Below are positions 33,401 through 62,369 of a stretch of DNA of 64,000 nucleotides, piece by piece. The notes below the pieces were generated by a model that worked only from the letters and a program-made list of their open reading frames with translations, was not told where the DNA came from and searched no databases. Position 1 is the first letter of the stretch; each line of letters begins with the position of its first letter. The position numbers and the translations under genes are program-made. The stretch comes from Odontesthes bonariensis (Eukaryota; Chordata; Actinopteri; Atheriniformes; Atherinopsidae), in NCBI RefSeq assembly GCF_027942865.1, contig NC_134527.1, positions 664,248-728,247 of the forward strand. Reading direction: 5' to 3'.

Positions 33401-36400
33401 CCAGGGGGAGGAGCTCCACCATCCAGGAGGAGGAGCTCCACAATCCAGGGGGAGGGGCTCCACAATCCAGTGGGAGGAGCTCCACAATCCAGGGGGAGGG
33501 GCTCCACAATCCAGTGGGAGGAGCTCCACAATCCAGGGGGAGGGCCTCCACAATCCAGGGGGAGGAGCTCCACAATCCAGGGGGAGGGCCTCCACAATCC
33601 AGGGGGAGGCGCTCCACAATCTGAGGGAGCTGGGAGTGCAGCTGCTGCTCCTCCTCACAGAAAGGAGTCAGCTGAGGTGGTTCTTCTGTCAGGATTTCTC
33701 CTGTCAGGAGGCCCCGGGTCAGAACCAGAACCCTCTGGAGGGATTATACATCCCATCTGACCTGGGAACACCTCGGGTGTAGTTATAGAGTCTGTTACTA
33801 CGGTAACTGACCGAGAGCTTAAGACCTCGGAACCAGCTCATGGAGCCGTGTGCTGACCCGATTGATCTCCACTGATCGATCTACACTGATTGATCTCCAC
33901 TGATCGATCTCCATTGATCGATCTCCACTGATCGATCTCCACTGATCGATCTCCATTGATCGATCTCCACTGATCGATCTCCACTGATCGATCTCTGACT
34001 TGTTCCATCAGGGCAGCCGTAAGGAGGAGACGAGCTTCACGGTGCTGGAAGAATCCATGTTTGCTTACGGCCTCGTCGAGATCAAGTTCAAGGATAAGAA
34101 GCTGGGTAGGTTAAACACACTGTTCAATCTGTTTGTGTTTCAGTGGGTTGAGTGGGCTTTGGAGTCATTTCTCTCTTTTTGGGTTTTTCAGATATCTCAT
34201 TTGAACCCTGGACTCACAAACAAAGTAGGTTGTTGCATGCTTTGTCTCTTTGTTAATTCTGTTCTGGGAATCAAACATTCTGATGGACCTTTAAGCTTCG
34301 ACTGATGAGCACGTACAGCATCTTTGGTCTGATCAGGAATCTGATGCAGAAGCTGGGTTAAGACAAGGTTTTTTGGCTTGAATTAGAGGAAGAACCAGAA
34401 GGAATCAAGTTTCCTTTAAAATGAGCACTTTGTAGAGCATCTGTCCCGAGAAGTGGACCGTTTTTATTTTACTTCCTCTTACATCTTAAGGTGTCTACAT
34501 GCACTTAATAACTCAGTCTGATTGTGATTGAGCCAATAATCCGATCCTTTCGGTGCCATGTGACCCCACTGAGTCAGATCCATGCGGTCTCTGCTCTGAA
34601 GAACGATGGCGAGGAAATCAAGAAGAACCTGAAAAGTTTAAATTGGTAAAAAAAAGTTCTCACAGAGGTCTGACCTTCATGAAGCGCATCATGAACACAG
34701 ATCACATGGATAAAGGACTCTTTGAACAGTTAAATGTGTGGCCGGTTCCGTTCGGATCTGATCCTCTTCGGTTGTGTTCTCAGGCCGGCTCAGCTGTGAC
34801 AGCTCAGACTCTGAGGTGCTACCACAAGTCAGAGAAGGTGGGTGTGACTTTCAGAGTGACTTTCAGAGTGTGCTGGGCCCGTTCCAGCCTTCAGAGGTTC
34901 TGATCCGGTTCTTCCTGCAGAGATCCAGATGAAGGAGGGACTCCTGCGGCCGCTGGTCGAGCTGCCCGAGTCCAGCCGCCGGGATCTGCTGAACAAACTC
35001 AGAGAGGTGGTGGAGGACGGAGAGGCTCTGACTCTGCTGGAGGAAACGGTACGAGGAGCGTTTAAAGTGTTTAAATGAAACCTGGGGAGTATCAGCTGTC
35101 CAATGAGCATGGACCTGTCTCCTCTCAGCTGTCCAATGAGCATGGACCTGTCTCCTCTCAGCTGTCCAATGAGCATGGACCTGTCTCCTCTCAGCTGTCC
35201 AATGAGCATGGACCTGTCTCCTGTCTCCTCTCAGCTGCACCAGCCCAACACAGGAGCGAGCGCCCGGCCTCCGCCTGCGGCCGTCTCCTCCTTCCTGGAT
35301 CTTCTGGATGTCTCCGGCGTCTCCTCAGCTGCCAGGGACGCCGTTCACCTGCTGGTGAGCGCCATGGACAGTGAGTCAGCCCATCTGTGGTCGCATCCAG
35401 CGAGCGGTGGATGTTAGGAGCTCGTTTTTAACGCCTCGCTTTCTGTGCAGACCTTCCCGAGGGAATGCCGCCGCTTCTGACCTCCTGCGATCCTGAAACG
35501 ATGAGAGTCCTCCGACAGCTGGTGGGTGGATTCACTGTCCGACACGTTTAAGTATGAGCCCACCAAGTAAAGCTAGCCGCAGTGAGCAACGCACTTCCGG
35601 TTATTTTTACAAAATAAAATACCCGTTGCCTTTTATCATAGGGAAAGCCATTACCATACAATTGGTGCTTTTGTTTTGAAAACAGGAAGTGAACCTACCC
35701 TCGTTGTAGCTAGCTTGAAACTGCCGTTTTGACAGGAAATGACGATCGGCGACGTCACGTTACGTTGCATCTTGGGTAGTTTGAGTATGAGTAGTAACCT
35801 CATGATGCATACCCAACATTTAGAGAATCTAGTATGCATCCGGGAACTTCTGGTTGACTCAAACTCGCATACTAACTCAGAAAGTTAGTATGAGAAGTAG
35901 GAGAAGTAGGAGTAGTATGAGTAGTAGGAGTAGTAGGAGTAGTAGGAGAAGTAGGAGTAGTACGAGAAGTATGAGTAGTAGGAGAAGTATGAGTAGTAGG
36001 AGTAGTAGAAGTAGGAGAAGTATGAGTAGTATGAGAAGTAGGAGTAGTATGAGTAGTAGGAGTAGTAGGAGAAGTAGGAGTAGTAGGAGAAGTAGGAGAA
36101 GTAGGAGTAGTATGACTAGTAGGAGTAATACGAGAAGTATGAGTAGTAGGAGAAGTAGGAGAAGTATGAGTAGTATGAGAAGTATGAGTAGTATGAGTAG
36201 TAGGAGTAGTAGGAGAAGTAGGAGTAGTAGGAGAAGTAGGAGAAGTATGAGTAGTATGAGTAGTAGGAGGAGTAGTAGGAGAAGTAGGAATAGTAGGAGA
36301 AGTAGGAGTAGTAGGAGAAGTAGGAAAAGTAGGAGAAGTAGAAGTAGGAGTAGTAGGAGTAGTAGGAGAAGTATGAGTAGTAGGAGAAGTAGGAGTAGTA

Positions 36401-37948
36401 GGAGAAGTAGGAATAGTAGGAGAAGTAGGAGTAGTAGGAGAAGTAGAAGTAGGAGTAGTAGGAGAAGTAGGAGTAGTAGGAGTAGTATGAGTAGTAGGAG
36501 TAGTAGGAGTAGTAGGAGTAGTAGGAGAAGTAGGAGTAGTAGGAGTAGTATGCAGTTTGGAACGCAGCCTAAATGCTGTAAACTGGAGGAGAGATGGATT
36601 ACTGATACTGAGCGATAACCTGAGCTGAAGTTGCCATCTCATGGTTACATTACATTGTTCTCCAGGTTTAAGTTGTTTCCACACAGAAGTTTAAACTCTG
36701 GATGTGGCTGAGAACATTTAATCACATGAGATCACATTTTATAACCCGAAAACAAACGTGTCGTTAGTTGAAGTTCAGATAAATGGAACCACTGCGCCCC
36801 CTGCTGCTGTAAATCAGAACCTGCGCTGTTCCTTTCCCACAAAGGTAGAAAGTGTGAGAACATCCCAGTGAGTTCAGCTTGTAGATTTACTTAAAAAACC
36901 CTTTGTAAGTATTTGCACTCAGATGATTTAAGTAATATTTAAAGTTTAAATTTTACTCACCATAAAACATAACAGTTTTGAAGATATTAAGTAACATTTA
37001 CTTAATTACATCTAAGTTTTAAGTTATATTTAGTGAAACAAATGAAGTAAAGTCTACTTGTTTTTCATAGGCAGGAACATCATTTTACTCAAAATTTTAA
37101 GTAAATTTGATATATCTGCAGTATTTGCTGTTATGTTAGTAGATTTTAACTTTCAGAGTAAAGTTTAGGTCGTATTTCTAGGTTTATGTACATGCAACTA
37201 TTAAACATTTAAATTGTATGAGGAAACCTGAGTAAAACTTACTCTTCCCCCATAATTCATGTATTACGTTAATAAAATGTTTAATTTCACTTAAGAAACT
37301 CGAGTTCTTACTGAATCTAGAGATTATGACAGTTACTCTAACAGAGTTTACTTCACCAAAAAGTCACTTTTTTCAGTGCATCCATTAAAGGCACAAAAGC
37401 CCCCCAAAAATGTTGTTTTATTTTTATTTTTTTAATTAAAAATAAATAAATAAATAAAAACCTGCGTTAATGCGCGATAAAATATTTTTTTATCGCGACA
37501 AAATTTTAAGTAAATTTTATATATCTGTAGTATTTGCTGTTATGAAGTAACTTAGTAGATTTTAACGATACACTTTCAGAGTAACGTTTATGTAGTATTT
37601 CTAGGTTTATGTACATACAACTATTAAACATTTAAATTGTATGCAGCTGAATGTGACAGAGAGGGTTCTGCCTGCCCGGCTGGAGGCATCAGAACCAGAG
37701 ATCTAAGGTGGGCTTCATTCTGCCTGCAGGTGGACGCTCTGCAGCAGGACGGCCGGGCCACGCTCCCAGAGTCGCCGCCCGCCCCCCTGCAGGAGGACGG
37801 GGGGCTCCGCTGGGTGGCCGACCTCCTCTGTTCCACCGAGCAGACGCTGGCAGAGCTGAGCGACGCCTGGAACCGGCCGGCCCCGGTTCTGCTGGAGGTT
37901 CTGGCCCTCAGTGTGCTGGGACTCAGCCTGATGCAGCCCAGAGCTTAA
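27479..37948 (+). CDS. gsdme-like: Gasdermin family pore-forming protein (gasdermin-E-like), 10 coding exons, about 427 aa
   Basis: Exons: 27479-27674, 30939-31122, 33096-33264, 34012-34105, 34192-34224, 34784-34837, 34921-35048, 35235-35370, 35451-35521, 37730-37948; the summed 1284 nt stay in phase to TAA. The N-terminus MFAAETKALVKNVG then LIPNDDL, TLVKVREGRFWQLPKYK matches gasdermin N-domains. FTVLEESMFAYGLVEIKFKD (exon 4) is the conserved end of that domain. Exons 5-7 form a linker with the acidic motif CDSSDSEVLP, and exons 7-10 form the Leu-rich autoinhibitory C-domain ending VLGLSLMQPRA; that domain excludes pejvakin. Gasdermins are cleaved in the linker and then perforate membranes (pyroptosis). 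Intron 3 uses a GC donor (AAG|GCGAGT). The ATG exon begins after an acceptor (ctcag at 27471-27475), so a non-coding first exon lies upstream. The exact paralogue is uncertain. Confidence 0.85.
27675..27720 (+). repeat. Tandemly duplicated splice donor after gasdermin exon 1
   Basis: CCCCAG|GTGAGTAACCTG occurs at the exon 1 donor and again 24 bp downstream (GT at 27699), with a third ccccccag|gtgcag at 27719. Use of the second donor would add GGT GAG TAA, an immediate stop, so only the first supports the full protein. Confidence 0.7.
27837..28530 (+). mobile_element. hAT element with target duplication CTGTAGGC and BED-finger fossil
   Basis: Target duplications ctgtaggc are at 27829-27836 and 28531-28538. 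The termini are CAGTGGTTTTCAAAG and, reverse-complemented, CAGGGGTTCCCAAACTTTTC. Inside, one frame reads VLCLETLSNECSKPSKLQRH followed by TQKH and a charged stretch. This matches the finger of ZBED-type hAT transposases, including Cys and His spacing. Stops precede it, so it is dead. Confidence 0.85.
28653..29206. mobile_element. 554-bp MITE with TAGCCTG/CAGGCTA ends and 9-bp target duplication
   Basis: It is flanked by cccattgac at 28644-28652 and 29207-29215. Terminal repeats are very short (tagcctg, caggcta). A 9-bp duplication with short termini is unusual among fish MITEs; superfamily not assigned. Confidence 0.7.
29325..29951. mobile_element. hAT MITE (TAGGGCTGAACGATAT ends)
   Basis: Left end tagggctgaacgatat and right end atatcgttcagccccta-like (atatcgttcagcccta) are inverted repeats. 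Flanking 8-mers atgtctgc and atttctgc match at 7 of 8, consistent with an older hAT target duplication. The subterminal region is rich in atctcgatat. Confidence 0.75.
30847..30938. repeat. 21-bp repeat running into gasdermin exon 2 acceptor
   Basis: About four copies of cactgaggctccgccccctgt. The last copy is altered to ccccctgtcag, and that AG is the exon 2 acceptor at 30937-30938, so the repeat supplies the pyrimidine tract. Confidence 0.85.
31143..33075. repeat. 31-bp minisatellite with splice-acceptor-like unit, gasdermin intron 2
   Basis: About 62 copies of a 31-bp unit, gacccacagtaactgacttg plus ttgctgctcct (starts at 31151, 31182 and so on). Each unit carries taac/ctgac branch-like motifs, a pyrimidine-leaning ttgctgctcctgaccc and a cacag. 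It begins about 20 bp after the exon 2 donor and ends about 20 bp before the true acceptor tctgtctttcag. Long minus-strand frames here are artefacts. Confidence 0.95.
33385..33625. repeat. 22-bp minisatellite (ATCCAGGGGGAGGAGCTCCACA), gasdermin intron 3
   Basis: About 11 units. A close relative of the same motif (ctccaccatccgggggaggggctcc) occurs at 25272-25303 and 27298-27345, upstream of the gene on both sides of the hAT insertion. Confidence 0.9.
33858..33995. repeat. 14-bp repeat (GATCGATCTCCACT), gasdermin intron 3
   Basis: About nine copies of gatcgatctccact with ccatt and acact variants, ending some 15 bp before the exon 4 acceptor. Confidence 0.9.
35094..35234. repeat. 33-bp repeat containing CTCTCAG acceptors before gasdermin exon 8
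   Basis: Four copies of a 33-bp unit (agctgtccaatgagcatgga followed by cctgtctcctctc). Each unit boundary reads cctctcag|ctgtcc; the real exon 8 acceptor (35231-35234) is the final, identical ctcctctcag followed by ctgcaccag. The gene therefore has several competing 3' splice sites in a row. Confidence 0.85.
35565..36570 (+). mobile_element. MITE family M, copy A (gasdermin intron 9), with array at right terminus
   Basis: The body 35565-35850 (agctagccgcagtgagcaac, gaaaacaggaagtgaaccta, ggcgacgtcacgttacg) is near-identical to 53985-54268 and, reverse-complemented, to 61330-61610. The right end is cagtttggaacgcagcct. The left terminus is missing. Between body and right end lies a 670-bp repeat. 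Confidence 0.8.
35888..36555. repeat. Degenerate AGTAGGAGAAGTAGGAGTAGT array
   Basis: A purine-rich repeat in a 3-bp register (agt-agg-aga-agt), including agtatg variants like those at the MITE end. The Ser-Arg and Thr-Pro frames seen here are by-products of the repeat. Confidence 0.9.
37085..37645. repeat. Pair of about 140-bp direct repeats, gasdermin intron 9
   Basis: 37088-37225 and 37498-37645 share caaaattttaagtaaattt, gtatttgctgttatg, gtatttctaggtttatgtac and ctattaaacatttaaattgt, with a few small indels. The copies are about 410 bp apart. The second copy ends about 85 bp before the exon 10 acceptor. Confidence 0.75.
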
Positions 37949-38689
37949 AGCTCCTCCGGTATGTGGCAGTCAGCGTACCATACAAGACATGAAACAGGTT
38001 CCTGTATGGAAACTACATTAGTTACACTGCTCAGATCTGGATGGAATTATTCTAAAGAGGCTGTAGATTCATTAAAACCTTGTTTGGGATTTGTGAAACC
38101 TTTATTATATTTGTGAAAATGCAATAGACACGTTTCACACTATTTTGAGTATATAGACCACATTAGACCAGGTCCAGATCAAAAACCACTGTACCTAGAA
38201 ACCTTATTGAAAATAAAGGGACAAAAAACGGGTTCCATTCTTTGAATATCTTTTATTTCTCTCCATCTCATTTCTAATGGACATGAAAATGTCTTCTTTC
38301 TCAGTCTACAAAACAGTAAAAAAGTAAAAAGCTTATGTTTATCTCTTGAGAAACGTTAAACACATCTTCATTGATTGTTCAGTTGGGAAACAATCCTCTA
38401 AAAGTCCTGATTTGCACTTCCCTTTGTTCCATCTGGCCATGCTCCACCTCTTCCACGGCCTTTATTGTTGCCTGTGTTGGAACCACTTTTGCTGTTAGTG
38501 CTATTATTTATCATTTGAACAATACAATTACAGTAATTATCACAATTATGAACACCTGATTGATTAAAATAGTTTGCTGGCTTTACTAACATCTGCCATC
38601 ATTTCAGACGCTGCTCTTGTTCTCCCGGCCACCGAGAGTTTGTGTTCCTCCCTTTCTTCATCATCTGACCACCCACCTGAAGACATGAT
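37949..38689. other. 3' flank of the gasdermin gene
   Basis: No second gene is evident. Several aataaa-like signals (for example gaaaataaag near 38210) could serve as poly(A) sites. The stretch 38595-38690 is a mixed-sequence lead-in to the following 6-bp array. Confidence 0.3.
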
Positions 38690-39695: not shown

Positions 39696-40059
39696 TCCAG
39701 AGTTTATAAATATTAATATTGTCCTGCTTATCATGTGTCACAGAGTATATTGTATCTCCAACAGACATTACAAAAAATGGAGCTAATTCAGGTGTTATAT
39801 TTGTTTACTATTAATTATTGAGCTGTGCTATAAGTCCATCCATTGCATCCCAGAATAAATGTATTTTTGCCTTCCTGCGATGAGTCTTACCTCCTTTTTT
39901 TAAAGCTCTTTCCTGCTCGACCCTTTAGTTCTTCAGCTTGTTGGTGTCCTGTACAATAACTGCCAACAAATTAAACCTGTGTCCCTAAATCCTCCGTTTT
40001 CCTGAGTTTCTGATTCATCTTTTCTGTTCAAAGCAACATTTCAACTTTTCCTTTATCTT

Positions 40060-40262
40060 AATGTCACATCACATATTTATCTGGACTGTTGCTGGTTTTT
40101 AAATTCATTTAAATGATTATATTTGTTTCTCTTTATATTCTTTTATGTATTTTAATGCTTCTTCCACTCCCTGCTGCAATGCTTTTATTTTATGTGAAGC
40201 ACTTTGAACTGTTTTGTACATGAAATGTGCTATATAAATAAATTTGATTGATTGATTGATTT
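40060..40262 (+). mobile_element. L2-like LINE/SINE 3' tail
   Basis: The sequence gtgaagcactttgaactg, atgtgctatataaataaa and trailing (attg)n repeats are the conserved 3' end of fish L2-like LINEs or SINEs that borrow it. Everything upstream is truncated or decayed. Confidence 0.6.
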
Positions 40263-40404
40263 AAGTGGTTCTCTCACTTGTCTTTTTTCCCTTTGCTCAT
40301 TTTACTATTCCCCTTCTATTTAATCTTTCCTTTTGTTAAATTATTATTAAGGCACCCTTACAGATATTATCTTAGAGAAAAATGTGTTTACAATAATAAT
40401 AACT

Positions 40405-40956: not shown

Positions 40957-40959
40957 CTG

Positions 40960-41425: not shown

Positions 41426-41429
41426 CACT

Positions 41430-42268: not shown

Positions 42269-42278
42269 CCTGCTCTAC

Positions 42279-42350: not shown

Positions 42351-42633
42351 TTTAAAGCCTAAGAAAAGAAAAACACTCATTTATAAATGAATACTTGAAG
42401 TAGAAAAACCATGCTCAAATGCTAAAAAATTTATGGTTTAGAGATAAATCTCTAAACCATAAATTCTTGTAAATATCCCACTTTTCCTTATTGCTTGAGT
42501 TAATTTCCTTGATTTCCAAAATTATTATTTTCCATAGTAAGTATGAGTGGTCGCTGTCAACTGCGGCGGAGTATTTGGTTATAAACGGAAGAGAAGGAGA
42601 CGGAACTGGAACTTTACCCTCCGGCTGACTCAC

Positions 42634-42647
42634 AAACCCGGAGCGAC
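42634..42647. repeat. L1 target-site duplication, left copy (AAACCCGGAGCGAC)
   Basis: Identical to 45618-45631 at the far side of the L1. The flanks would rejoin as ...ctcacaaacccggagcgac|gaggtgacg, so the insertion split the sequence immediately upstream of the cfap53 promoter. Confidence 0.85.
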
Positions 42648-48800: not shown

Positions 48801-51681
48801 TACCTCTGGTTAAACACTGGTTACCTCTGGTTAAACACTGGTTTCCTATGGTTACCTCTGGTTACCATTGGTTAAACACTAGTTACGCCAGTTAAACATC
48901 CGTCAGAGCAGGCTGAAAGTTAAAGGACTGAAGTTATCTTCAGTCTGAACTGAACAAAGCTCCACTTTGTGTCGGGGCAGAGCCCATCTGATCAGCTCTG
49001 AAGGTTTCTGTCCTTCACCACTTCCTCTGAACAGTCGCAGTCGGTTTAAGCGTGACTCTAAAGCTCTAAATAAAAAAAATGTTGAACCTGCTTCAGATGG
49101 TGGGTTAGGGTTAGCATGGGTAAAGGCTCTAACATAGTTGCCGCGTCTGCTAGCGCGAGCGGTGTTGATGACGTCACGATTTCGTGCCCGCTATGTATAG
49201 TGGCGCAAGTCGATGCGCCAGTAGTTGCAATTTTCTCCGTCACAGAGGTGGCGCTGCTACGTCAAGGTTACCGCTACTCTACAACCACGAAAGTGGAGAA
49301 GAAAACAATGCCGGTGTCAAGAGCAGGAACACTGCCATTAATGCTGCTGCTGCAGTATTCGGATCATTTTATTTTTTTAATTCAGTTAAAAGAGGTGAAG
49401 GTCTGAAGCCCCCGGCATCAACAGAGTCTCTGCCCTCTTCTTTGCCTTCACGTATCTGTCCCGTAGCTTCTTCCACACATTCTTACAGAACTCTCCCTCT
49501 TTCCCCAAAGTTCTGCCCATCTCTGTGCACCAGTTTGGGGAGTTTACGTGCTCCCTGTGCTGTTTCACTGCAGTTTCATACAGCTGCCTGTACAAACGCA
49601 CCTCCTGACTGAGCCCGGTCTCACATCGGTCCATCCGGTCTGTTGTTGTTGGCGCCGCCAAGTTACAAAAGTCGACTGGTGCACGACAACGCGCTGCGCC
49701 GTCTTTTCAAGGGAAGCGCCATGCCTGAAACGTCATTATGACGTCACGGTCCGCCACCGCCGTGACAGACGCGTCAACCATGCTAGCGCCTTAACTCCGG
49801 CTTAAGTGTCCGTTTAAGATCTCCTACGTGGGTGAAAACAGGAGCGAGCAGAAACATGTGGGTGGCAGACGGCCTGAGAACAGGACGCTGGAACTGAAAG
49901 GCTCGGTGCTGTTTTCAGGCAGCAGTGTGAGGAGCTGCGCAGCGTCCAGAGCAGACGCAACGAGCGGCAGGTGTGTCTGGAGCGAGCCGCTCAGGTGAGG
50001 AGCAACCAGGCGCAGCGGCAGCAGCTGCAGCAGGAGGAGCGGCTGTTCCAGCAGCTGTGGGAGGCCGACCGCCGAGCCAAAGAGGAGCAGGAGAGTCTGC
50101 GCCTCCAGAGGCGGCGGCAGGGAGACGGCGAGCAGCTGCGCGTCCTGAGGAGTCAGACGGAGGAGGCCGAGCGGCGGAGGCAGCAGGAGGCGGAGCTGAG
50201 AGAGGAGGAGGCCCGGCTTCTGGTCTGCTCCTCACTCTGCAGCTAAAACACACTCAGACAGGAAGCTGGCACACTCAGGAAGCCTCTCTGTTTCTACCCT
50301 TATCAAATAGATTTGTCTTATTAATGCTTCACTAGGAGGAAAACTTGGTCATATTCAAATGGTCTATGAAGACCTATTACCACTGTATCAGCCTTAATAT
50401 GTCCTCTCAGATGAAAGTTTTTTATCCAAGTTAAATAATAGACTTTAAAATACTCCCATTAAATTTATAGACCGAACAGCTTAGTACTTAGTATAGAAAA
50501 GATTTGTTATCATTCATTATATCAACCGTTCTATTGTTAGCTATATTTTTTAAATGCCTCCTTTTAGAGGAAAGTTTATCCATATTTGTTAGCTTTTGTT
50601 AGTTTACTCAAATCACCTGTTATAGTTATACCAATCCTACTATTAGCTAAATTTACTTTTGCTCGTTATAGTTATACCAATCCTACTATTAGCTAAATTT
50701 ACTTTTGCTCTGTTATAGTTATACCAATCCTACTATTAGCTAAATTTACTTTTGCTCTGTTATAGTTATACCAATCCTACTGTTAGCTAAATTTACTTTT
50801 GCTCTGTTATAGTTATACCAATCTTACTATTAGCTAAATTTACTTTTGCTCTGTTATAGTTATACCAATCTTACTATTAGCTATATTTACTTTTGCTCTG
50901 TTATAGTTATACCAATCTTACTATTAGCTATATTTACTTTTGCTCTGTTATAGTTATACCAATCTTACTGTTAGCTAAAAATTACCTGATTGATGTTTTG
51001 TATCTGTATTTCTGTTTGATTTTTTGACGTTTTTATTTCTGTATTTCTGTACTGTGTTGTGGATCGCCTTGTTGCTGAAAGGTGCTATATAAATAAATTT
51101 CTCTTCACTCTCTGTGGCAGCGGCAGCAGCAGCAGACGCAGCTCCTGCAGCAGCAGCGGCAGCAGCAGCTGAAGCTGCAGCAGCAGCAGAACCGGCGCCG
51201 GCAGCTGGACCGAGGCCTCCGGCTGAAGATGAAGCGAGTGGCCCGAGAGCAGCAGGAGGAGCTGCAGCTGGACCTGAGCATCCTGGAGCAGCTGCTCCAG
51301 CAGGAGACGGACCAGAGGCAGGAGGCCGCCCAGAGGAAGGTAAACGCAGCCCACAGGCTCCCTCTGAGTCAGGATCCAGAGATCCACCTCAGCTCCTGGT
51401 CCTCTGAGTCCAGATCCAGAGATCCACCTCAGCTCCTGGTCCTCTGAGTCCAGATCCAGAGATCCACCTCGGCTCCTGGTCCTCTGAGTCCAGATCCAGA
51501 GATCCACCTCAGCTCCTGGTCCTCTGAGTCCAGATCCAGAGATCCACCTCGGCTCCTGGTTCTCAGTTAAACTGATGAATCATCATACTAAATACTGCAT
51601 ACTACATACTGCATACTACATACAACATACTGCATACTACATACTGCATATTACATACTACATACTGCATACTGCATACTA

Positions 51682-51713
<32 letters not shown>

Positions 51714-51863
51714 TTACATACTACATACTGCATACTGCATACTGCATGCTACATACTACATACTGCATACTGCATACTGCATACTGTATACTGCATACCG
51801 CATACTGCATACTGCATATTACATACTACATACTGCATACTGCATACTACATATTACATACTA

Positions 51864-51895
<32 letters not shown>

Positions 51896-52948
51896 TTACA
51901 TACTACATACTGCATACTACATACTGCATACTGCATACCGCATACTGCATACTGCATACTGCATATTACATACTACATACTGCATACTGCATACTGCATG
52001 CTACATACTACATACTGCATACTGCATACTGCATACTGTATACTGCATACCGCATACTGCATACTGCATATTACATACTACATACTGCATACTGCATACT
52101 ACATACTGCATACTACATACTGCATACTGCATACTGCATATTACATACTACATACTGCATACTGCATACTACATACTGCATACTACATACTGCATACTGC
52201 ATACTGCATATTACATACTACATACTGCATACTGCATACTGCATGCTACATACTACATACTGCATACTACATACTGCATACTGCATACCGCATACTGCAT
52301 ACTGCATATTACATACTACATACTGCATACTACATACTGCATATTACATACTACATACTGCATACTGCATACTGCATGCTACATACTACATACTGCATAC
52401 TACATACTGCATACTGCATACCGCATACTGCATACTGCATATTACATACTACATACTGCATACTGCATACTGCATGCTACATACTACATACTGCATACTA
52501 CATACTGCATACTGCATACCGCATACTGCATACTGCATATTACATACTACATACTGCATACTACATACTGCATACTGCATACCGCATACTGCATACTGCA
52601 TATTACATACTACATACTGCATACTACATACTGCATATTACATACTACATACTGCATACTGCATACTGCATGCTACATACTACATACTGCATGCTACATA
52701 CTACATACTGCATACTACATACTGCATACTGCATACCGCATACTGCATACTGCATATTACATACTACATACTGCATACTACATACTGCATACAGCATACC
52801 GCATACTGTATACTGCATACTGCATACTACATACTACATACTGCATACTACATACAACATACTGCATACTGCATACTGTATACTGCATACTGCATACTAC
52901 ATACTACATACTGCATACTACATACTACATACTGCATACTACATACAA

Positions 52949-52980
<32 letters not shown>

Positions 52981-54834
52981 TTACATACTACATACTGCAT
53001 ACTGCATACTGTATACTGCATACTGCATATTACATACTGCATACTGCATACTACATACTACATACTGCATACTGCATACTGCATACTACATACTGCATAC
53101 TGAATACTGCATACTGCATACTTCCATACTTCCATACTACATACTACATACTGCATACTACATACTACATACTACATACTACATATTGAATACTACATAC
53201 TACATACTGCATACTGCATATTACATACTACATACTGCATACTACATACTACATACTGCATACTACATACTACATACTGCATACTGCATACTGCACACTA
53301 CATACTGCATACTGTATACTGCATACTGCATACTTCCATACTTCCATACTTCCATGCTACATACTACATACTGCATACTACATACTACATACTACATACT
53401 ACATACTACATACAACATACTGCATACTGCATACTGCATATTACATACTACATACTGCATACTGCATACTGTATACTGCATACTGCATACTGCATACTAC
53501 ATACTGCATACTACATACTGCATATTACATACTACATACTGCAAACTGCATACTGCATACTGCATATTACATACTACATACTGCATACTACATACTACAT
53601 ACTGCATACTGCATACTACATACTGCACACTGTATACTGCATACTTCCATACTTCCATACTTCCATACTACATACTACATACTGCATACTACATACTACA
53701 TACTACATACTGCATACTACATACTGCATACTACATACTACATACTACATACTACATACTGATCGATCAGACAGTATGCAGAGCGTTTACCCACAATGCA
53801 TCTCGCTCCTGCCCGAGCCGAAATCAGCCGGCATGAAGCTGATTTCTCTTAAGCTCTAAACTCTGTAAACTTTAGCAACATTTGAAACATTTTCAGGTGA
53901 GAAAGTAGTCGTTTAGATCCCCAACGTGTTGAAAACCTGACAAAATACCGGCTGTTTACAATTTTGTTCCCACGAATTCGGCGCTACTAAAGCTAGCCGC
54001 AGTGAGCAACGCACTTCCTGTTATTTTCACAAAATAAAATACCTGTTGCCTTTTATCATAGGGAAAGTCATTACCATACAATTGGTGCTTTTGTTTTGAA
54101 AACAGGAAGTGAACCTACCCTCGTTGTAGCTAGCTTGAAACTGACGTTTTGACAGGAAATGACGATCGGCGACGTCACGTTACGTTGCATCTTGGGTAGT
54201 TTGAGTATGAGAAGTAACCTCATGATGCATACCCAACATTTAGGAGAATCTAGTATGCATCCGGGAAAAAAGTCAGTATGAGTATTTTGGTTTGGAACAC
54301 AGCCATGGTGACAAAAACTGCAGGAAGAATACTGTTTTCTTCAGGAAACAGAAGCAGAAAGAACCGGATTGTTTCTCCGGTTCCAGCCGGTGAGGAAAGG
54401 TTTTCAGGAGTGTGGCTCTGTGTTCAGGTGGAGCTGCGGGAGGAGCAGAGCAGGTACCGGCACCACCTGTCCCAGGAGCTGCAGAGGCAGCGGGCGGAGG
54501 AGCAGGAGGCGGAGCTACTGATGGAGGCGGAGCTGAAGGAGGCCTGGATGAAGCGCGAGCAGCAGAACCGCCTGCGGACAGAGGCCAGAACCCGCCTGAT
54601 GGAGCAAGTGATGGAGGCCCGGCGCCTGCAGGTCCAGAACCAGCGTAAGAGAACCCAGTTCCTGTGTGTGTCCATGTGGGCGGAGCCTCTGGTGTGTGTC
54701 CATGTGGGCGGAGCCTCTGGCTGAGTGCTAGAAAGAGGAGCTTCATCACAATCTGTTCCAGCTCGGTCACCCCTTCATTCCTCAGATGGACCAGTCCTGA
54801 ACTCTATGTGTGTGTTTGTGTGTGTGTGTGTGTC

Positions 54835-54900
<66 letters not shown>

Positions 54901-57900
54901 CAGTGGATGTAAACCTGCAGAAACAGGCTGAGCTGCAGAAGGAGAGGGAGGAGCTGAGTGGAGCCGCCGAGGAGGTGAAGCTGAAGGACGAAGAGGAGAG
55001 AAGACGGTACGTCAGCCGCAGGACATGTTGGTGTTGTTTCCTGCTGTTGCTGTTTCTTGTTGTTGTTGTTGTTATTTCCTGTTGCTGTTTCCTGTTATTA
55101 TTGTTGTTGTTGTTGTTGTTTCCTGTTGCTGTTGTTATGTCCTGTGGTTGTTTCCTGTTGTTGTTGTTGTAATTTCCTGTTATTGTTTCCTGCTGCTGTT
55201 GTTGTTGTTGTTTCCTGTTGTTTTTGTTGTTTCCTGTTATTGTTGTTCTTGTTGTTGTTTCCTGTTGCTGTTGTTGTTTCCTGTTATTGTTTCCTGTTGC
55301 TGTTTCCTGTTGTTGTTTCCTGCTATTGTTTCCTGCTATTGTTTCCTGTTGTTGTTGTTGTTTCCTGTTGTTCTTTCCTACTGTTGTTGTTGCCTGTTGC
55401 TTTTATTGTTTCCTTTTATTGTTTCCTGTTGTTGTTGTTGTTGTTATTTCCTGTGGTTGTTATTTCCTGTTGCTGTTTCCTGTTATTGTTATTGTTGTTG
55501 TTGTTGTTGTTTCCTGTTGCTGTTGTTGTTTGTTGTTGTTGTTGTTGTTGTTGTTATTTCCTGTGGTTGTTTCCTGTTGTTGTTGTTGTTATTTCCTGTT
55601 ATTGTTTCCTGCTGCTGTTGTGGTTGTTGTTTCCTGTTGTTTTTGTTGTTGTTGTTTCCTTTTGCTGTTGTTGTTTCCTGTTATTGTTTCCTGTTGCTGT
55701 TTCCTGTTGTTGTTTCCTGCTGTTGTTTCCTGCTGTTGTTGTTGCCTGTTGCTTTTATTGTTTCCTGTTGTTGTTTCCTGCTGTTGTTGTTGCCTGTTGC
55801 TTTTATTGTTTCCTGTTGTTGTTGTTGCCTGTTGCTTCTATTGTTTCCTGTTGTTGTTGTTTCCTGCTGTTGTTTCCCGTTGTTTCCTTTTGTTGTTGTC
55901 GCCTGTTGCTTTTATTGTATCCTGCAGTTGTTGTTGTTTCCTATTGTTGTTTTTGTTTCCTGTCATTGTTTCCTGTTGTTGTTTCCTGTTGTTGTTGTTG
56001 TTTCATGTTATTGTTTCCTGTTGTTGTTTCCTGCTGTGTGACATCACTCTCCCTGCAGCCATAGACAGGCAGCGGCGGCGTACAGGGCTGACCTGTTGTT
56101 GTTTCCTGTTGTTGTCTCCTGTTGTTTCCTGTTGTTGTTTCCCGCTGTTGTTGTTATTGTTTCCTGTTGTTGTTTCCTGTTGTTGTTTCCTGCTTTTGTT
56201 TCCTGTTGTTGTTGTTGCCTGTTGCTTTTATTGTTTCCTGTTGTTGTTGTTGTTTCCTGCTGTTGTTTCCCGTTGTTTCCTTTTGTTGTTGTTGTTGTTT
56301 CCTATTGTTGTTTTTGTTTCCTGTCATTGTTTCCTGTTGTTGTTCCTGTTGTTGTTGTTGTTTCATGTTATCGTTTCCTGTTGTTGTTTCCTGCTGTTGT
56401 TTCCTGCTGTTGTTTCCTGCTATTGTTTCCTGTTGTTGTTTCCTGCTGTTGTTGTTGCCTGTTGCTTTTATTGTTTCCTGTTGTTGTTGTTGTTGTTATT
56501 TCCTGTGGTTGTTGTTATTTCCTGTTGCTGTTTCCTGTTATTGTTGTTGTTTCCTGTTGCTGTTTCCTGTTGTTGTTTCCTGCTGTTGTTTCCTGCTGTT
56601 GTTGTTGCCTGTTGCTTTTATTGTTTCCTGTTGATGTTGTTGTTTCCTGTTGTTGTTTCCTGCTGTTGTTGTTGCCTGTTGCTTTTATTGTTTCCTGTTG
56701 TTGTTGTTGCCTGTTGCTTCTTTTGTTTCCTGTTGTTGTTGTTGTTGTTTCCTGCTGTTGTTTCCCGTTGTTTCCTTTTGTTGTTGTTGCCTGTTGCTTT
56801 TATTGTTTCCTGCAGTTGTTGTTGTTTCCTATTGTTGTTTTTGTTTCATGTCATTGTTTCCTGTTGTTGTTGTTGTTTCATGTTATTGTTTCCTGTTGTT
56901 GTTTCCTGCTGTGTGACATCACTCTCCCTGCAGCCATAGACAGGCAGCGGCGGCGTACAGGGCTGACCTGTCGTTGTTTCCCGCTGTTATTGTTATTGTT
57001 TCCTGTTGTTGTTTCCTGTTGTTGTTTCCTGCTTTTGTTTCCTGTTGTTGTTGTTGCCTGTTGCTTTTATTGTTTCCTGTTGTTGTTTCCTGCTGTTGTT
57101 TCCCGTTGTTTCCTTTTGTTGTTGTTGCCTGTTGCTTTTATTGTATCCTGCAGTTGTTGTTGTTGTTTCCTATTGTTGTTTTTGTTTCCTGTCATTGTTT
57201 CCTGTTGTTGTTCCTGTTGTTGTTGTTGTTTCATGTTATCGTTTCCTGTTGTTGTTACCTGCTGTGGGACATTATCTCCCTGCAGCCACAGACAGGCGGC
57301 GGCAGCGTACGGGGCTGACCTGTTGTTGTTTCCTGTTGTTGTCTCCTGTTGTTGTTTCATGTTGTTGTTTGCTGTTGTTGTTTCCTGCTGTTGTTGTTTC
57401 CTGTTGTTGTCTCCTGTTGTTTCCTGTTGTTGTTTCCCGCTGTTGTTGTTTTTGTTTCCCGTTGTTGTTCCTGTTGTTGTTTCCTGTTGTTGTTGTTTCC
57501 TGTTGTTGTCTCCTGTTGTTTCCTGTTGTTGTTTCCCGCTGTTGTTGTTTTTGTTTCCCGTTGTTGTTCCTGTTGTTGTTCCTGTTGTTGTTTCATGTTG
57601 TTGTTTGCTGTTGTTGTTTCCTGCTGTTGTTGTTGTTTCCTGTTGTTGTTTCCTGTTGTTGTTGTTGTTTTTGTTTCCTGTTGTTGTTCCTGTTGTTGTT
57701 TCCCGTTGTTGTTTCCTGTTGTTGTTTCCTGCTGTTGTTGTTTCCTTTTGTTGTTGTTGTTCCTGTTGTTGTTTCCCGCTGTGTGACATCACTCTCCCTG
57801 CAGCCACAGACAGGCGGCGGCGGCGTACGGCGCTGACCTGCAGGCTCAGATGAAGCAGCAGCAGCAGCTTGGCAGCGAGCAGAGAGCTCAGGCTCTCAGG

Positions 57901-58035
57901 GAGCATCAGCAGGGGCTGATCCTGGAGCAGCTCTACAATCACAAGAAAGACCAGATCCTGTCCACACCTGAGAGTCACTCCACCAACCCCCATCCTTTCA
58001 GGAGGGCTGAGAGATCCAGGTTAGGGTTACCCTAA
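45894..58035 (+). CDS. cfap53: Cilia- and flagella-associated protein 53 (CFAP53/CCDC11), 8 exons, 515 aa
   Basis: Exons: 45894-45962, 46529-46758, 47723-47896, 49919-50222, 51121-51339, 54428-54644, 54904-55006, 57804-58035; all GT-AG, total 1548 nt in phase (human CFAP53 is 514 aa). Exon 1 carries EISGPTPNSVAVV, like GPTPKVVIV in human. Exon 3 has EEKKETPEGRRAEMKERLKV; exon 4 has LFQQLWEADRRAKEE; exon 6 has RTRLMEQVMEARRLQVQNQ; exon 8 has the RQAAAAYGADLQAQM and STNPHPFRRAE tail. The protein is almost wholly coiled coil (TPH-like). It is a microtubule inner protein of ciliary doublets and is also found at centriolar satellites; its loss causes laterality defects. Every intron longer than 500 bp contains an array or transposon. 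The stop lies inside ttagggttaccctaacccc. Confidence 0.93.
45970..46410. repeat. 54-bp minisatellite, cfap53 intron 1
   Basis: About eight copies of a 54-bp unit (tacaagtaccacagtgagag then tac-gagtactgcgttacag and cgggaatatctgtg). It begins within about 10 bp of the exon 1 donor. A short gtactttaatgtacttta repeat (46415-46505) continues to the exon 2 acceptor. Confidence 0.92.
46789..47625. mobile_element. hAT MITE (AGGGATGGGAATTGATAAG ends), cfap53 intron 2
   Basis: The left end agggatgggaattgataag and right end ttctggattcccatccct are inverted termini of a common fish hAT family. Internal gaatcgataagggaatcg and the reversed ttcccttatcgattctc form a subterminal inverted repeat. It fills most of intron 2. 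Confidence 0.7.
47930..48890. repeat. ACTGGTTAMM minisatellite, cfap53 intron 3
   Basis: Units of 10-12 bp (cactggttac, cactggttaaa, tctggttacc) beginning about 30 bp after the exon 3 donor. The same core reappears in the same orientation downstream of the gene at 58124-59925. Confidence 0.93.
49105..49812 (-). mobile_element. PIF/Harbinger-type remnant with MADF-domain frame, cfap53 intron 3
   Basis: A minus-strand frame (49661-49386) reads MDRCETGLSQEVRLYRQLYE, then SPNWCTEMGRTLGKEG and CKNVWKKLRDRYVKAKKR. That is a MADF (Myb/SANT-like) domain as encoded by the second gene of PIF/Harbinger transposons. Near both ends are related inverted motifs (ttagcatgggta; gaccatgctagcgc-like ccatgctagcgcc) and gatgacgtcacg. 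The transposase gene is absent. Confidence 0.5.
50270..50590. other. cfap53 intron 4, unique part
   Basis: AT-rich sequence with no recognisable element; it leads into a 47-bp array. Confidence 0.3.
50590..50985. repeat. 47-bp repeat, about 7 copies, cfap53 intron 4
   Basis: The unit begins accaatcctactattagcta and continues aatttacttttgctctgtta-tagttat. Copies differ at few positions. Confidence 0.9.
50990..51106 (+). mobile_element. L2-like LINE/SINE tail directly before cfap53 exon 5
   Basis: gctgaaaggtgctatataaa followed by taaattt is a conserved fish LINE tail. It ends only about 15 bp before the exon 5 acceptor (ctctgtggcag), so the insertion sits at the edge of the splice site. Confidence 0.5.
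51350..51560. repeat. 40-bp repeat starting at the cfap53 exon 5 donor
   Basis: Five copies of ctcctggtcctctgagtcca followed by gatccagagatccacctcag. It starts about 10 bp past the donor GTAAACGC. Confidence 0.92.
51584..53757. repeat. 7-bp repeat CATACTG/CATACTA, about 2.2 kb
   Basis: About 310 units of catactg, catacta, catatta, catgcta and cataccg, with occasional catacttc. Blocks of variants recur (for example gcatgctacatactacatac). The period of 7 gives 7-codon repeats in open frames; no protein. Confidence 0.97.
51584..54304 (+). mobile_element. MITE family M, copy B (cfap53 intron 5), with 2.2-kb array at left terminus
   Basis: The body 53760-54268 contains agcgtttacccacaatgcat, ccccaacgtgttgaaaacct, ttgttcccacgaattcggcg and then the block shared with copies A and C. 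The right end is ttggtttggaacacagcc at 54304. The left terminus has been replaced by the 7-bp array. Confidence 0.8.
54813..54899. repeat. (TG)n microsatellite abutting cfap53 exon 7 acceptor
   Basis: A nearly pure tg run ends gtgtgtgttcag, and the final cag is the exon 7 acceptor. The usual pyrimidine tract is thus replaced by alternating TG. Confidence 0.92.
56035..56095 (+). pseudogene. Partial copy 1 of cfap53 exon 8 start (acceptor plus 37 bp)
   Basis: gtgacatcactctccctgcag followed by the first 37 bases of exon 8 with three differences (atagacaggcagcgg, tacaggg), then directly back into ttgttgtttcc repeats. The acceptor is intact at 56057-56058. Confidence 0.85.
56913..56970 (+). pseudogene. 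Partial copy 2 of cfap53 exon 8 start
   Basis: Identical to copy 1 through gctgacctg, with acceptor AG at 56932-56933. It shares the same differences from the true exon, so copies 1 and 2 come from one another. Confidence 0.85.
57265..57322 (+). pseudogene. Partial copy 3 of cfap53 exon 8 start
   Basis: gggacattatctccctgcag followed by ccacagacaggcggcggcag and gtacggggctgacctg, then repeats. It is closer to the true exon (cacagacaggcggcgg) than copies 1 and 2 but has a shortened pyrimidine tract. Confidence 0.85.
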
Positions 58036-58123
58036 CCCCAAGTCTGCAGAGGCAGACCGAGAGAAACTTTATCAATAAACACAGAGAGAAGCTTTGATCT
58101 GCAGGTTTTACTGACTGATGAAA

Positions 58124-59925
58124 CACTGGTTACACACTGGTTACACACTGGTTAAACACTGGTTACACACTGGTTAAACACTGGTTAAACACTGGTTACA
58201 CACTGGTTACACACTGGTTACACACTGGTTAAACACTGGTTACACACTGGTTACACAATGGTTAAACACTGGTTACACACTGGTTACACACTGGTTACAC
58301 ACTGGTAAAAAACTGGTTACACACTGGTTAAACACTGGTTACACACTGGTTAAACAGTGGTTACACAATGGTTAAACACTGGTTAAACACTGGTTACACA
58401 CTGGTTAAACACTGGTTAAACACTGGTTAAACACTGGTTACACATTGGTTAAACACTGGTTACACAATGGTTAAACACTGGTTACACACTGGTTACACAC
58501 TGGTTAAACACTTGTTACACACTGGTTAAACACTGGTTACACATTGGTTACACACTGGTTAAACACTGGTTAAACACTGGTTACACATTGGTTAAACACT
58601 GGTTACACACTGGTTAAACACTGGTTACACACTGGTTAAACACTGGTTAAACACTGGTTACACACTGGTTAAACACTGGTTACACACTTTTTAAACACTG
58701 GTTAAACACTGGTTAAACACTGGTTAAACACTGGTTACACACTGGTTAAACACTGGTTAAACACTGGTTACACACTGGTTAAACACTGGTTAAACACTGG
58801 TTACACACTGGTTAAACACTGGTTACACACTGGTTAAACACTTGTTACACACTGGTTAAACACTGGTTACACACTGGTTAAACACTGGTTACACACTGGT
58901 TAAACACTGGTTAAACACTGGTTACACACTGGTTACACACTGGTTAAACACTGGTTACACACTTTTTAAACACTGGTTAAACACTGGTTACACACTGGTT
59001 AAACACTGGTTACACACTGGTTAAACACTGGTTACACACTGGTTAAACACTGGTTAAACACTGGTTACACACTGGTTAAACACTGGTTAAACACTGGTTA
59101 CACACTGGTTAAACACTGGTTACACACTGGTTAAACACTGGTTAAACACTGGTTACACACTGGTTAAACACTGGTTACACACTGGTTAAACACTGGTTAA
59201 ACACTGGTTACACACTGGTTAAACACTGGTTACACACTGGTTAAACACTGGTTAAACACTGGTTACACACTGGTTAAACACTGGTTAAACACTGGTTACA
59301 CACTGGTTACACACTGGTTAAACACTGGTTACACACTGGTTAAACACTGGTTACACACTGGTTAAACACTGGTTAAACACTGGTTACACACTGGTTAAAC
59401 ACTGGTTACACACTGGTTAAACACTGGTTAAACACTGGTTACACACTGGTTAAACACTGGTTAAACACTGGTTACACACTGGTTAAACACTGGTTACACA
59501 CTGGTTACACACTGGTTACACACTGGTTAAACACTGGTTAAACACTGGTTACACACTGGTTACACACTGGTTAAATGCTGGTTAAACACTGGTTAAACAC
59601 TGGTTACACACTGGTTACACACTGGTTACACACTGGTTAAATGTTGGTTAAACACTGGTTACACACTGGTTAAATGCTGGTTAAACACTGGTTAAAGACT
59701 AGTTAAGCAATAGTTAAACACTGGTTAACACTGGTTAAACAATGGTTACACACTGGTTAAACACTGGTTAAACACTGGTTAAACATTGGCTAAAGATTAG
59801 TTACACTCATTAAACATTGGTTAAAGACTAGTTAAAGATTAGTTAAAGATTTGGTAGAGACTAGTTAAGCACTGGTTAAACATTGGCTAAAGACTAGTTA
59901 CACTTATTAAACACTGGTTAAATGC
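58124..59925. repeat. 11-bp minisatellite ACACTGGTTAM downstream of cfap53
   Basis: About 160 units of acactggttac and acactggttaa, degenerating after 59690 (gactagttaaag). It starts about 90 bp after the cfap53 stop, so it may lie within the 3' UTR. Confidence 0.96.
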
Positions 59926-59929
59926 TGGT

Positions 59930-60455
59930 TTAGAGGGAGTTAACTGGTGACAGACCAGAACCCTCTAACAGACATGCTTCAGACCCGTTCAGCTGCCTGT
60001 TGGAGCTGATCCAACCCGCCCTTCTTCTTCTTCTTCTCTGGACAGTGAAGGATAAAACACAGAGTGAGTGAAACACACTGACTCAGAGTGTGTGTGACCA
60101 GGTGAGTTACCTGCAGGATGGTTGGGTAATGTTTACAGAGGGAGATCCAGGCTGAGCCTTCTGTTGGGAAAGAACAGCTGAGTCACTGGTCCTGAACATC
60201 CCATCAGCAGATGTTCCAGATGTTTTCAGCTCTGCTGATGAACAGCTGCCCGCTGCAGAGCTCATTCTTTTCTTTGCTCTGTAAAAGTCCCGCGGTTAGT
60301 TTGAGTGGAGCAATGATAACGAGCGCTGTGGAAACATGTCTGCTGCCCCGGAGCGTTCAGCTCATGGAAGAAGCCGGATCAGACTCAACATGTTCTGCTG
60401 TTGGGAAACACTCTGACGCCTGGCGACGGGCGGACGCCACGACAAACAAATCAAC
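59930..60455. other. Spacer after the 11-bp array
   Basis: Contains an 84-codon open stretch from 60211 (MFQMFSALLMNSCPLQSSFF) with no recognised domain. It runs into the LINE-derived array and may be part of the LINE 3' coding region or neighbouring unique DNA. Confidence 0.3.
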
Positions 60456-60461
60456 AACAAA

Positions 60462-61100
60462 ACAAGCCTTCAGTTATCAGGCCCCTCTCTGTGGAACCAG
60501 CTGCCAGTTTGGGAGGCAGAGCCTTCAGTTATCAGGCCCCTCTCTGTGGAACCAGCTGCCAGTTAGGGAGGCAGAGCCTTCAGTTATCAGGCCCCTCTCT
60601 GAGGAACCAGCTGCCAGTTTGGGAGGCAGAGCCTTCAGTTATCAGGCCCCTCTCTGTGGAACCAGCTGCCAGTTTGGGAGGCAGAGCCTTCAGTTATCAG
60701 GCCCCTCTCTGAGGAACCAGCTGCCAGTTTGGGAGGCAGAGCCTTCAGTTATCAGGCCCCTCTCTGTGGAATCAGCTGCCAGTTTGGGAGGCAGAGCCTT
60801 CAGTTATCAGGCCCCTCTCTGTGGAACCAGCTGCCAGTTTGGGAGGCAGAGCCTTCAGTTATCAGGCTCCTCTCTGTGGAACCAGCTGCCAGTTTGGGAG
60901 GCAGAGCCTTCAGTTATCAGGCCCCTCTCTGTGGAACCAGCTGCCAGTTTGGGAGGCAGAGCCTTCAGTTATCAGGCCCCTCTCTGTGAAACCAGCTGCC
61001 AGTTTGGGAGGCAGAGCCTTCAGTTATCAGGCCCCTCTCTCTGTGGAACCAGCTGCCAGTTTGGGAGGCAGAGCCTTCAGTTATCAGGCCCCTCTCTACC
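60462..61100. repeat. 55-bp minisatellite made from the LINE WNQLP coding segment
   Basis: About 11 copies of a 55-bp unit (ccttcagttatcaggcccct, ctctgtggaaccagctgcca, gtttgggaggcagag). The last copy continues into normal LINE sequence (tctctacctttaagaccagg). Confidence 0.95.
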
Positions 61101-61277
61101 TTTAAGACCAGGCTTAAAACTTTCCTTTCTGATAAAGCTGATAGTTAGTGATGGCTCAGGTGATCCTGAAACATCCCATAGTTAAGCTGCTATAGGCCCA
61201 GCCTGCTGGGGGAGCTCCCATGATGCACCTCTCCATGTACGTGTGACATCATTGTTGTCATTAACTTGTGTTTCTCG

Positions 61278-62369
61278 GGCTGTGTTCGAAACCGCCTACT
61301 TCTCCTACTACCTTTAACTTTTTTTAAGTTCCCGGATGCATACTAGATTCTCCTAAATGTTGGGTATGCATCATGAGGTTACTACTCATACTCAAACTAC
61401 CCAAGATGCAACGTAACGTGACGTCGCCGATCGCCATTTCCTGTCAAAACGTCAGTTTCAAGCTAGCTACAACGAGGGTAGGTTCACTCCCTGTTTTCAA
61501 AACAAAAGCACCAATTGTATGGTAATGGCTTTCCCTATGATAAAAGGCAACGGGTATTTTATTTTGTGAAAATAACCGGAAGTGCGTTAGCTCACTGCGG
61601 CTAGCTTTAGTAGCGCCGAATTCGTGGGAACAAAATGGTAAACAGCCGGTATTTTGTCAGGTTTTCAACACGTTGGGGATCTAAACGACTACTTTCTCAC
61701 CTGAAAATGTTTCAAATGTTGCTAAAGTTTACAGAGTTTAGAGCTTAAGGGAAATCAGCTTCAGGCCGGCTGATTTCAGCTCGGGCAGGAGCGAGATGCA
61801 TTGTGGGTAAACGCTCTGCATACTGTCTGATCAATGAGTATATAGTATGGAAGTATGTAGTATGTAGTGTGTAGTATGTATTATGTAGTATGCAGTATGT
61901 AGTATGCAGTATGGAAGTATGTAGTATGTAGCATGTAGTATGTAGTATGTAGTATGGAAGTATGTAGTATGCAGTATGTAGTATGGAAGTATGTATGTAG
62001 CATGTAGTATGTAGTATGTGGTATGTTGTATGGAAGTATGTAGTATGTAGCATGTAGTATGTAGTATGTAGTATGCAGTATGTAGTATGAAGTATGGAAG
62101 TATGGAAGTATGTAGTATGTAGCATGTAGCATGTAGTATGTAGTATGTAGTATGCAGTATGTTGTATGTAGTATGTAGTATGTAGTATGTAGTATGGAAG
62201 TATGCAGTATGTAGCATGTAGTATGTAGTATGTAGTATGTAGTATGTAGCATGCAGTATACAGTATGTAGTATGTAGTATGTAGTATGTAGTATGCAGTA
62301 TGCAGTATACAGTATGTAGTATGCAGTATGTAGTATGTCGTATGCAGTAGGCGGTTTCGAACACAGCCT
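61278..62369 (-). mobile_element. MITE family M, copy C, with 520-bp array at one terminus
   Basis: Both ends are present: left GGCTGTGTTCGAAACCGCCT and right, reverse-complemented, the same 20 bases. The body 61330-61800 is the reverse complement of copy B. The 7-bp array (61826-62345) lies just inside the right terminus, the same end that is expanded in copy B. A target duplication could not be defined. Confidence 0.85.
61826..62345. repeat. 7-bp repeat GTAGTAT/GCAGTAT
   Basis: About 74 units, the reverse complement of the catacta/catactg units at 51584-53757, with gaagtat and tagcatg variants. It ends in gcagtaggcggtttcg of the MITE terminus. Confidence 0.95.

Follow-up and report, generated by a model that had tools for sequence, protein, structure and literature searches.

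Results

The 64,000-nucleotide stretch analyzed here (the window), positions 664,248 to 728,247 of contig NC_134527.1 of Odontesthes bonariensis, lies about 0.7 Mb from the end of its contig and contains three copies, A, B and C, of one family of miniature inverted-repeat transposable element (MITE), each carrying a long array of 7-bp or 9-bp tandem units. The reading we favor, and think probable, is that the MITE supplies the seed of these arrays while the chromosomal neighborhood supplies their growth, which recurs after insertion. An initial annotation of the window had recognized the common body of the three copies, and this was borne out: by BLAST, B is 97.6% identical to C over 507 bp and 97.5% identical to A over 280 bp, with C inverted relative to A and B. 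The parts of the copies, in window coordinates, are as follows (TRF, Tandem Repeats Finder).

35568..35849, plus strand: copy A, element body, 97.5–97.9% identical to B and C by BLAST
35886..36550, plus strand: copy A, expanded 9-bp array, AGTAGGAGT/AGTATGAGT, subterminal to end 2, 74.6 units by TRF
36554..36569, plus strand: copy A, end-2 inverted repeat AGTTTGGAACGCAGCC, outer to the array, read from the sequence
51584..53761, plus strand: copy B, expanded 7-bp array of CATACTG/CATACTA at end 1, about 310 units (about 2.2 kb) by TRF and tokenised units
53762..53990, plus strand: copy B, end-1 block adjoining the array, with the junction at about GATCGATCAGACAGTATGCAG, where the array also ends in the other array-bearing copies read
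53995..54280, plus strand: copy B, element body, used as probe (best 40 scored of 1467 candidates)
54289..54304, plus strand: copy B, end-2 inverted repeat GGTTTGGAACACAGCC, read from the sequence
61278..61300, minus strand: copy C, end-2 inverted repeat GGCTGTGTTCGAAACCGCCTACT, identical at 23 of 23 positions to 62346–62368
61326..61836, minus strand: copy C, body and end-1 block, 97.6% identical to B over 507 bp
61837..62349, minus strand: copy C, expanded 7-bp array at end 1, about 72 units by TRF
62346..62368, minus strand: copy C, end-1 inverted repeat, outer to the array, with 23-bp identity to the end-2 repeat

Copy C is complete, in that identical 23-bp inverted repeats enclose everything else and the array sits between the end-1 repeat and the body. 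The arrays had been placed at the very tips of the element; this placement must be given up, as the inverted repeat lies outside the array in C and likewise in four copies elsewhere in the genome (loci L008, L011, L021 and L029). The 9-bp array of copy A is indeed on the right, as had been described, but it is subterminal, with an end-2 inverted repeat outside it whose position equals that in the other family copies read; the end-1 half of A is missing, with truncation near 35565, and its array matches itself best at a shift of 18 bp and second best at 9. Both 7-bp arrays had been assigned to the left, which is correct for B, whereas that of C lies on the right in plus-strand coordinates; in terms of the element, both are at end 1. 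Expansion at end 2, as in A, is a rare kind. When the left flank of the array of B was read, no outer end-1 inverted repeat was seen. An ATG follows the end-2 repeat of B and another stands at 51575–51577, a possible target duplication, uncertain at three letters, and the target duplications of A, B and C are in general not clear.

The element family

In the assembly searched (945 Mb, 187 contigs), a tag from the inverted repeat had 8,676 matches at up to one mismatch and a 30-base body tag had 6,053 at up to two, with none for either reversed control. The second figure overstates the number of MITEs, because 13 of 40 body-tag loci on contig C1 belong to a related sequence that shares part of the body only and lacks this inverted repeat. 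Members of that related family (L063–L065, L067–L069, L071–L075, L077 and L078, at 3–30 Mb of C1 and thus interior in the C1 sample) share with the MITE body positions 1–170 and a portion of the end-1 block and have a different right half; the GGCTGTGTTCGAAACC inverted repeat was not found in the L063–L078 set. Facing inverted repeats of paired copies are mostly about 490–670 bp apart, giving a native length of about 0.5–0.7 kb. The family thus consists of short elements with terminal inverted repeats in high copy number, as expected of a MITE. It is unlike a foldback element, whose two inverted repeats are long and repeated internally, in that its own inverted repeat is about 23 bp and its two ends differ in unit.

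In the copies read, the inverted repeat at native end 1 is followed by typically two to six imperfect heptamers, and at native end 2 GTATGCGGTTTCGAACACAGCC is preceded by about one to four nine-base units, AGTAGTAGGAG for example. Since the inverted repeat has GCATACT as its inner part, the heptamer arrays consist of that part repeated in tandem. The resemblance between array units and natural terminal sequence proposed in the initial annotation is accordingly upheld, and the short native runs support its view of the element end as a seed and of the transposon as disperser of that seed.

Among 40 copies with both ends, the 3-bp target duplication was exact in 14, against 1.3 expected from cross-pairs; two of the 14, L003 and L004, represent one duplicated insertion, and none of the 40 had a longer exact duplication. 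A further 15 had a duplication with one mismatch, against 7.6 expected, though terminal branches of the body tree are only about 1%, and exchange between copies is a possible cause of such mismatches. Both flanks of these one-mismatch copies often still resemble target half-sites. The target consensus is palindromic, about AAAGWC-NNN-GWCTTT, with C at −4 in 26 of 40 copies and G at +4 in 36 of 40. PIF/Harbinger elements usually prefer TWA targets, a preference not seen among these 40 copies; zebrafish Harbinger, for its part, prefers a palindromic target. On the strength of the 3-bp duplication and the palindromic target, we conclude that this young, high-copy, putatively non-autonomous MITE family is probably PIF/Harbinger-like. 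The transposase domain PF13359 (DDE_Tnp_4) is abundant in the genome (best 150 scored of 3,145 candidates). Of 30 inverted-repeat loci on C1, 29 had the MITE body or end-1 block and one an end-2 remnant, and no transposase-bearing relative that could serve as autonomous partner was present among them.

Frequency of expansion

A sample of C1 was taken in the order of the body-tag list and blind to arrays; 41 consecutive places gave 40 loci, of which 13 were of the related family, four lacked the junction and 23 were scored. Only three of the 23 had at least 80 bp of array at end 1 (L087, at least 1,559 bp; L097, 110 bp; L093, 86 bp), and in L087 a further 301 bp to the left was also array throughout. 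The other 20 had 18–60 bp of heptamers (ACATACT, GCATACT, TCCATACT) followed by CATCGATCAGACAGTATGCAG or a sequence near it. The three window copies had suggested that arrays are present in every copy and that growth is the usual fate of an insertion; neither suggestion survives in the C1 sample, where most copies lack a long array.

A second sample consisted of the best 40 of 1467 places found with the body probe, one of them B itself. Of the other 39, 29 could be scored; eight of the remainder were without the junction or the end-1 repeat (three of these, L005, L016 and L017, being visibly short) and two had other sequence at end 1. Here 11 of the 29 assessable copies had at least 80 bp at end 1. 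The array of L012 measures about 821 bp, and those of L027 and L002 reach the edge of the locus. The 451 bp at end 1 of L022 and the 393 bp of L105 proved to be sequence of another kind, and both loci were dropped as array candidates.

Genome-wide counts were made with exact patterns anchored on the junction, whose reversed controls each gave no match. By these, 679 copies have an end-1 array of about 95 bp or more and 485 of about 425 bp or more, so that chance is excluded as the source of the array-plus-junction structure. In sequences in hand the patterns marked true arrays in all cases (three of three at 425 bp, seven of seven at 95 bp), with one match per junction; however, of the known arrays they recovered only three of 12 at 425 bp or more, missing B itself, and seven of 15 at 95 bp or more, so that both counts probably fall well short of the real totals. 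Nor does their ratio, 0.71, cleanly estimate the share of arrays that run on. Gaps of 70–100 between inverted repeat and junction gave 41 matches and gaps of 0–30 gave 551; the pattern classes do not form a partition, since the inverted-repeat patterns require 13 more exact letters. Expansion at end 2 by about 100 bp or more had two exact-pattern matches, A not being matched by the pattern.

Chromosomal position

Positions were compared in lists of 100 matches each, one of long arrays (at least 425 bp, covering C1 to part of C7) and one of short copies (gap of 0–30, covering C1, C2 and C3 to 9.46 Mb). Among the matches listed, long arrays occupied one end region per contig, with no match on C5.

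C1: 40.4–48.4 of 48.5 Mb
C2: 0.7–2.1 Mb
C3: 0.7–5.0 Mb
C4: 0.7–3.4 Mb
C6: 36.6–41.8 of 42.2 Mb
C7: 0.3–5.4 Mb, where the list ends

On C1–C3, where the long list is complete and the short list reaches 9.46 Mb on C3, and with copies treated as independent, 25 of 56 long arrays against 3 of 100 short copies listed lay within 2 Mb of the rich end (p = 1.5e-10), and 49 of 56 against 34 of 100 within 5 Mb (p = 5e-11). Array length depended on position on C2 (one-sided Mann-Whitney test, long against short copies listed, p = 2.5e-6) and C3 (p = 8.6e-8). When C1 was split at 43 Mb, 60 exact inverted-repeat loci listed fell below and 21 above this point, against 5 and 7 long arrays (p = 0.04). The position pattern of arrays of at least 95 bp was similar, and in the copy-rich interior of C2 (20–35 Mb) there were 17 short copies and three arrays reaching 95 bp, while no array there reached 425 bp. 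An exact search for telomere repeats gave matches at the two ends of C3 and of C6 and, on C2, at 46.85 Mb, the end opposite the rich one; among the matches listed in contig order there was none on C1, C4, C5 or C7. The rich end is thus telomeric on C3 and C6 and unproven as such on C1, C2, C4 and C7.

The MITE itself is clustered toward one end of C1, with 81 of 89 inverted-repeat loci listed (to 45.2 Mb) at or beyond 40 Mb. An extra MITE cluster lies within C2 at 26.7–31.9 Mb and could mark an old chromosome end.

The surroundings of the three window copies are themselves rich in repeats. Tandem repeats other than those of the MITE, counted from a length of 100 bp and a period of 5 upward, covered 37.9% of the window, compared with 3.1% at the B-probe loci L002–L030, 0% at the C1 loci L031–L060, 2.2% at L061–L079 and 0% at L080–L100. 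Because of this coverage, and of the concentration of long arrays near one contig end on C1–C3, the finding of three expanded copies out of three in the window is probably a neighborhood effect. Many unrelated minisatellites are present in the window (1–5119, 8596–12306, 15370–19276, 31150–33068 and 54800–59930), and the 16-bp unit at 11828–12306 recurs in reverse complement at 15370–19276. By eye, open stretches at 42547–45526 resemble the reverse transcriptase of a long interspersed nuclear element (LINE).

Growth after insertion

Several long arrays have amplified variants of their own. CACACT makes up 32.8% of the units in L027 and at most 1.4% in the other 11 long arrays, CAGACT makes up 37.0% in L020 and is absent from the others, TATACT reaches 18.5% in L029 (at most 4.2% elsewhere) and CATGCT 9.7% in copy C (at most 2.6% elsewhere); the L007 array has CGTACT (4.4% of units) and CTTACT (2.8%). 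The body tree is star-like, and a long or short label placed on it requires 13 changes, compared with 14.0 for shuffled labels, 156 of 500 shuffles being as low. L003 and L004 derive from one insertion that was copied in an inverted duplication (alignment of 1,059 bp with 33 gap positions); they have their flanks and an AAC target duplication in common, and end 1 measures 75 bp in the former and 47 bp in the latter; because the two halves differ by four units, length has changed after insertion. The private variants, the unclustered labels and the change between L003 and L004 mostly reject transposition of ready-made arrays, and we conclude that the arrays probably arose by repeated independent growth after insertion. 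The independent growth envisaged in the initial annotation is thus very probably recurrent in many copies, but not in the form of new units formed at the tips.

When each heptamer array was matched against itself, five of 12 matched best at multiples of the unit (70, 98, 147, 294 and 308 bp), as block exchange would give, and the other seven, including B and C, matched best at 7 bp. Among copies with both ends, none of seven with at least 80 bp at end 1 had an exact target duplication, compared with 14 of 32 shorter copies (p = 0.04; counting the duplicated insertion once gives 13 of 31 and p = 0.07).

Discussion

These observations fit a process in which transposition would scatter a short tandem repeat ready-made, as a heptamer run inside the end-1 inverted repeat, and this run would enlarge in place to about 0.1–2 kb after insertion. 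Slippage could account for the initial growth from a few units, and unequal exchange or gene conversion, as breaks near a chromosome end are repaired, for the later growth. Growth would be fast where meiotic breaks are frequent, near the rich chromosome end, and rare in the interior. In zebrafish spermatocytes, according to the part of the account consulted, meiotic breaks and crossovers occur mainly near telomeres (PMC8033029), and, by analogy, array growth in this genome may be linked to such breaks. The heptamers may originally have served as extra binding sites for the transposase.

Several observations weigh against growth of this kind. The L011 and L021 arrays have almost no private variant. 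Plain CATACTA/CATACTG strings are so widely shared that up to 65% of an array recurs in others at k = 35, so k-mer sharing alone cannot separate arrays, and some arrays may have exchanged sequence or have common ancestry. The body tree has only two well-supported branches, which force at most two changes of label. C1 shows a weak position effect (one-sided Mann-Whitney p = 0.025) that is not monotone, with 17 short copies and one long array at 2–4 Mb from the end, and the 13 exact inverted-repeat letters needed for the short class, and not for the long, could introduce a bias if ends decay faster near the rich ends. No telomere repeats turned up at the rich end of C1, C2 or C4, and C3, which has them at both ends, has its 25 long arrays at only one, so that proximity to a telomere is alone insufficient. 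The missing telomere repeats, together with the weaker target-duplication contrast once the duplicated insertion is counted singly, lower our confidence in seeded, position-dependent growth slightly.

Alternatively, one could suppose that a few founder copies acquired long arrays that were then transposed with them. Long arrays are somewhat commoner among copies similar to B than in the C1 sample (p = 0.06, or 0.12 if the three visibly short damaged copies are added), so subfamily may influence array length, and this, the k-mers shared by some arrays and the want of private variants in L011 and L021 are what such lineages would leave. We nevertheless consider them unlikely, given the privately amplified variants of several other arrays, the scatter of the long label over the tree, few of whose branches are supported, and the divergence of L003 and L004 after their duplication. 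At another extreme, any short tandem repeat might grow near the rich chromosome end, with the transposon a bystander. The abundance of other tandem repeats in the window and the strong position effect on C2 and C3 would follow from this; against it, hundreds of copies are expanded at one and the same junction (the pattern names that junction, other sites lying outside the test), and at L002–L030, which were picked around the MITE, MITE-type arrays cover 9.5% as against 3.1% for other tandem repeats. We regard a bystander role as quite improbable, though it differs from the combination of seed and neighborhood more in emphasis than in contradiction.

Selection on the element is the explanation to which we give very little credence: extra heptamers would act as transposase-binding sites, and copies with long runs would spread better. 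The heptamer does belong to the inverted repeat itself, and there is a precedent in what has been suggested for Tetris and Galileo (PMC4079207). Most sampled copies are short, however, long arrays are bound to position, and none of the seven copies with at least 80 bp has an exact target duplication, as against 14 of 32 shorter ones, a contrast that is itself softened when the duplicated insertion is counted once.

Several known systems resemble this one, as far as the abstracts and excerpts consulted describe them. MITEs are listed as sources of satellite and microsatellite arrays (PMC9659126, PMC12628747). The closest is Tetris TIR-220 of Drosophila virilis (PMC4079207), a non-autonomous DNA element in which duplication of an inverted-repeat segment produced an internal tandem repeat that reached kilobase arrays, the genomic environment is said to favor growth and two allelic copies are one unit apart; Tetris, however, is a foldback element with units of about 220 bp that grew in beta-heterochromatin, whereas the MITE described here has 7-bp units, is expanded mostly at one end and numbers its expanded copies in the hundreds. 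The Xstir repeats on a MITE of Xenopus (Hikosaka and Kawahara 2004) are likewise tandem repeats derived from a MITE, with MITE, array and composite forms, their source being given as the inverted repeat in the table of one review and as internal MITE sequence in the other (PMC9659126, PMC12628747). The review that names internal sequence reports a stem-loop mechanism between neighboring copies for Xstir, whereas here the array stays subterminal inside one MITE. In miDNA4, a Xenopus Tc1/mariner MITE with an internal satellite (Scalvenzi and Pollet 2014), the number of internal units varies and longer arrays come from the same seed (PMC9659126, PMC12628747), but the element is reported to have captured a pre-existing repeat, while in the present MITE the unit comes from the inverted repeat itself, being its inner part. 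Lepidopteran MITEs with hitchhiking (GTCY)n microsatellites (Coates et al. 2011) also carry a short tandem repeat, though of a different unit. BrickBuilt has a 23-bp minisatellite inside a MITE but is bacterial, with 19 copies in one strain, and its abstract does not mention position-dependent growth (PMC4596501). Among the titles and abstract openings retrieved in our literature search, in which coverage of subscription papers is thin, none concerned this MITE family or a position map of growth from one seed. Seeding of arrays by MITEs is therefore already known, and it is the scale and the position dependence that look new.

Whether sequence or location causes the birth of a minisatellite is hard to test, because different repeats differ in both. 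Here one sequence is present at thousands of places, with hundreds of copies grown and hundreds ungrown, which makes the effect of position directly readable and allows array lengths to be compared later with a recombination map. We would go further only tentatively, as a conjecture we hold to be less than even: the thousands of nearly identical heptamer seeds, spread in a single burst of transposition, could serve as a reporter of tandem-repeat birth, with array length recording how often breaks are repaired locally by unequal exchange. Growth would start near one end of each chromosome and become runaway past about 100 bp, and grown arrays might recombine with one another, leaving mismatched target duplications at the copies with long arrays. 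These findings suggest that seeds supplied to a genome by a transposon can be developed in some of its regions only.

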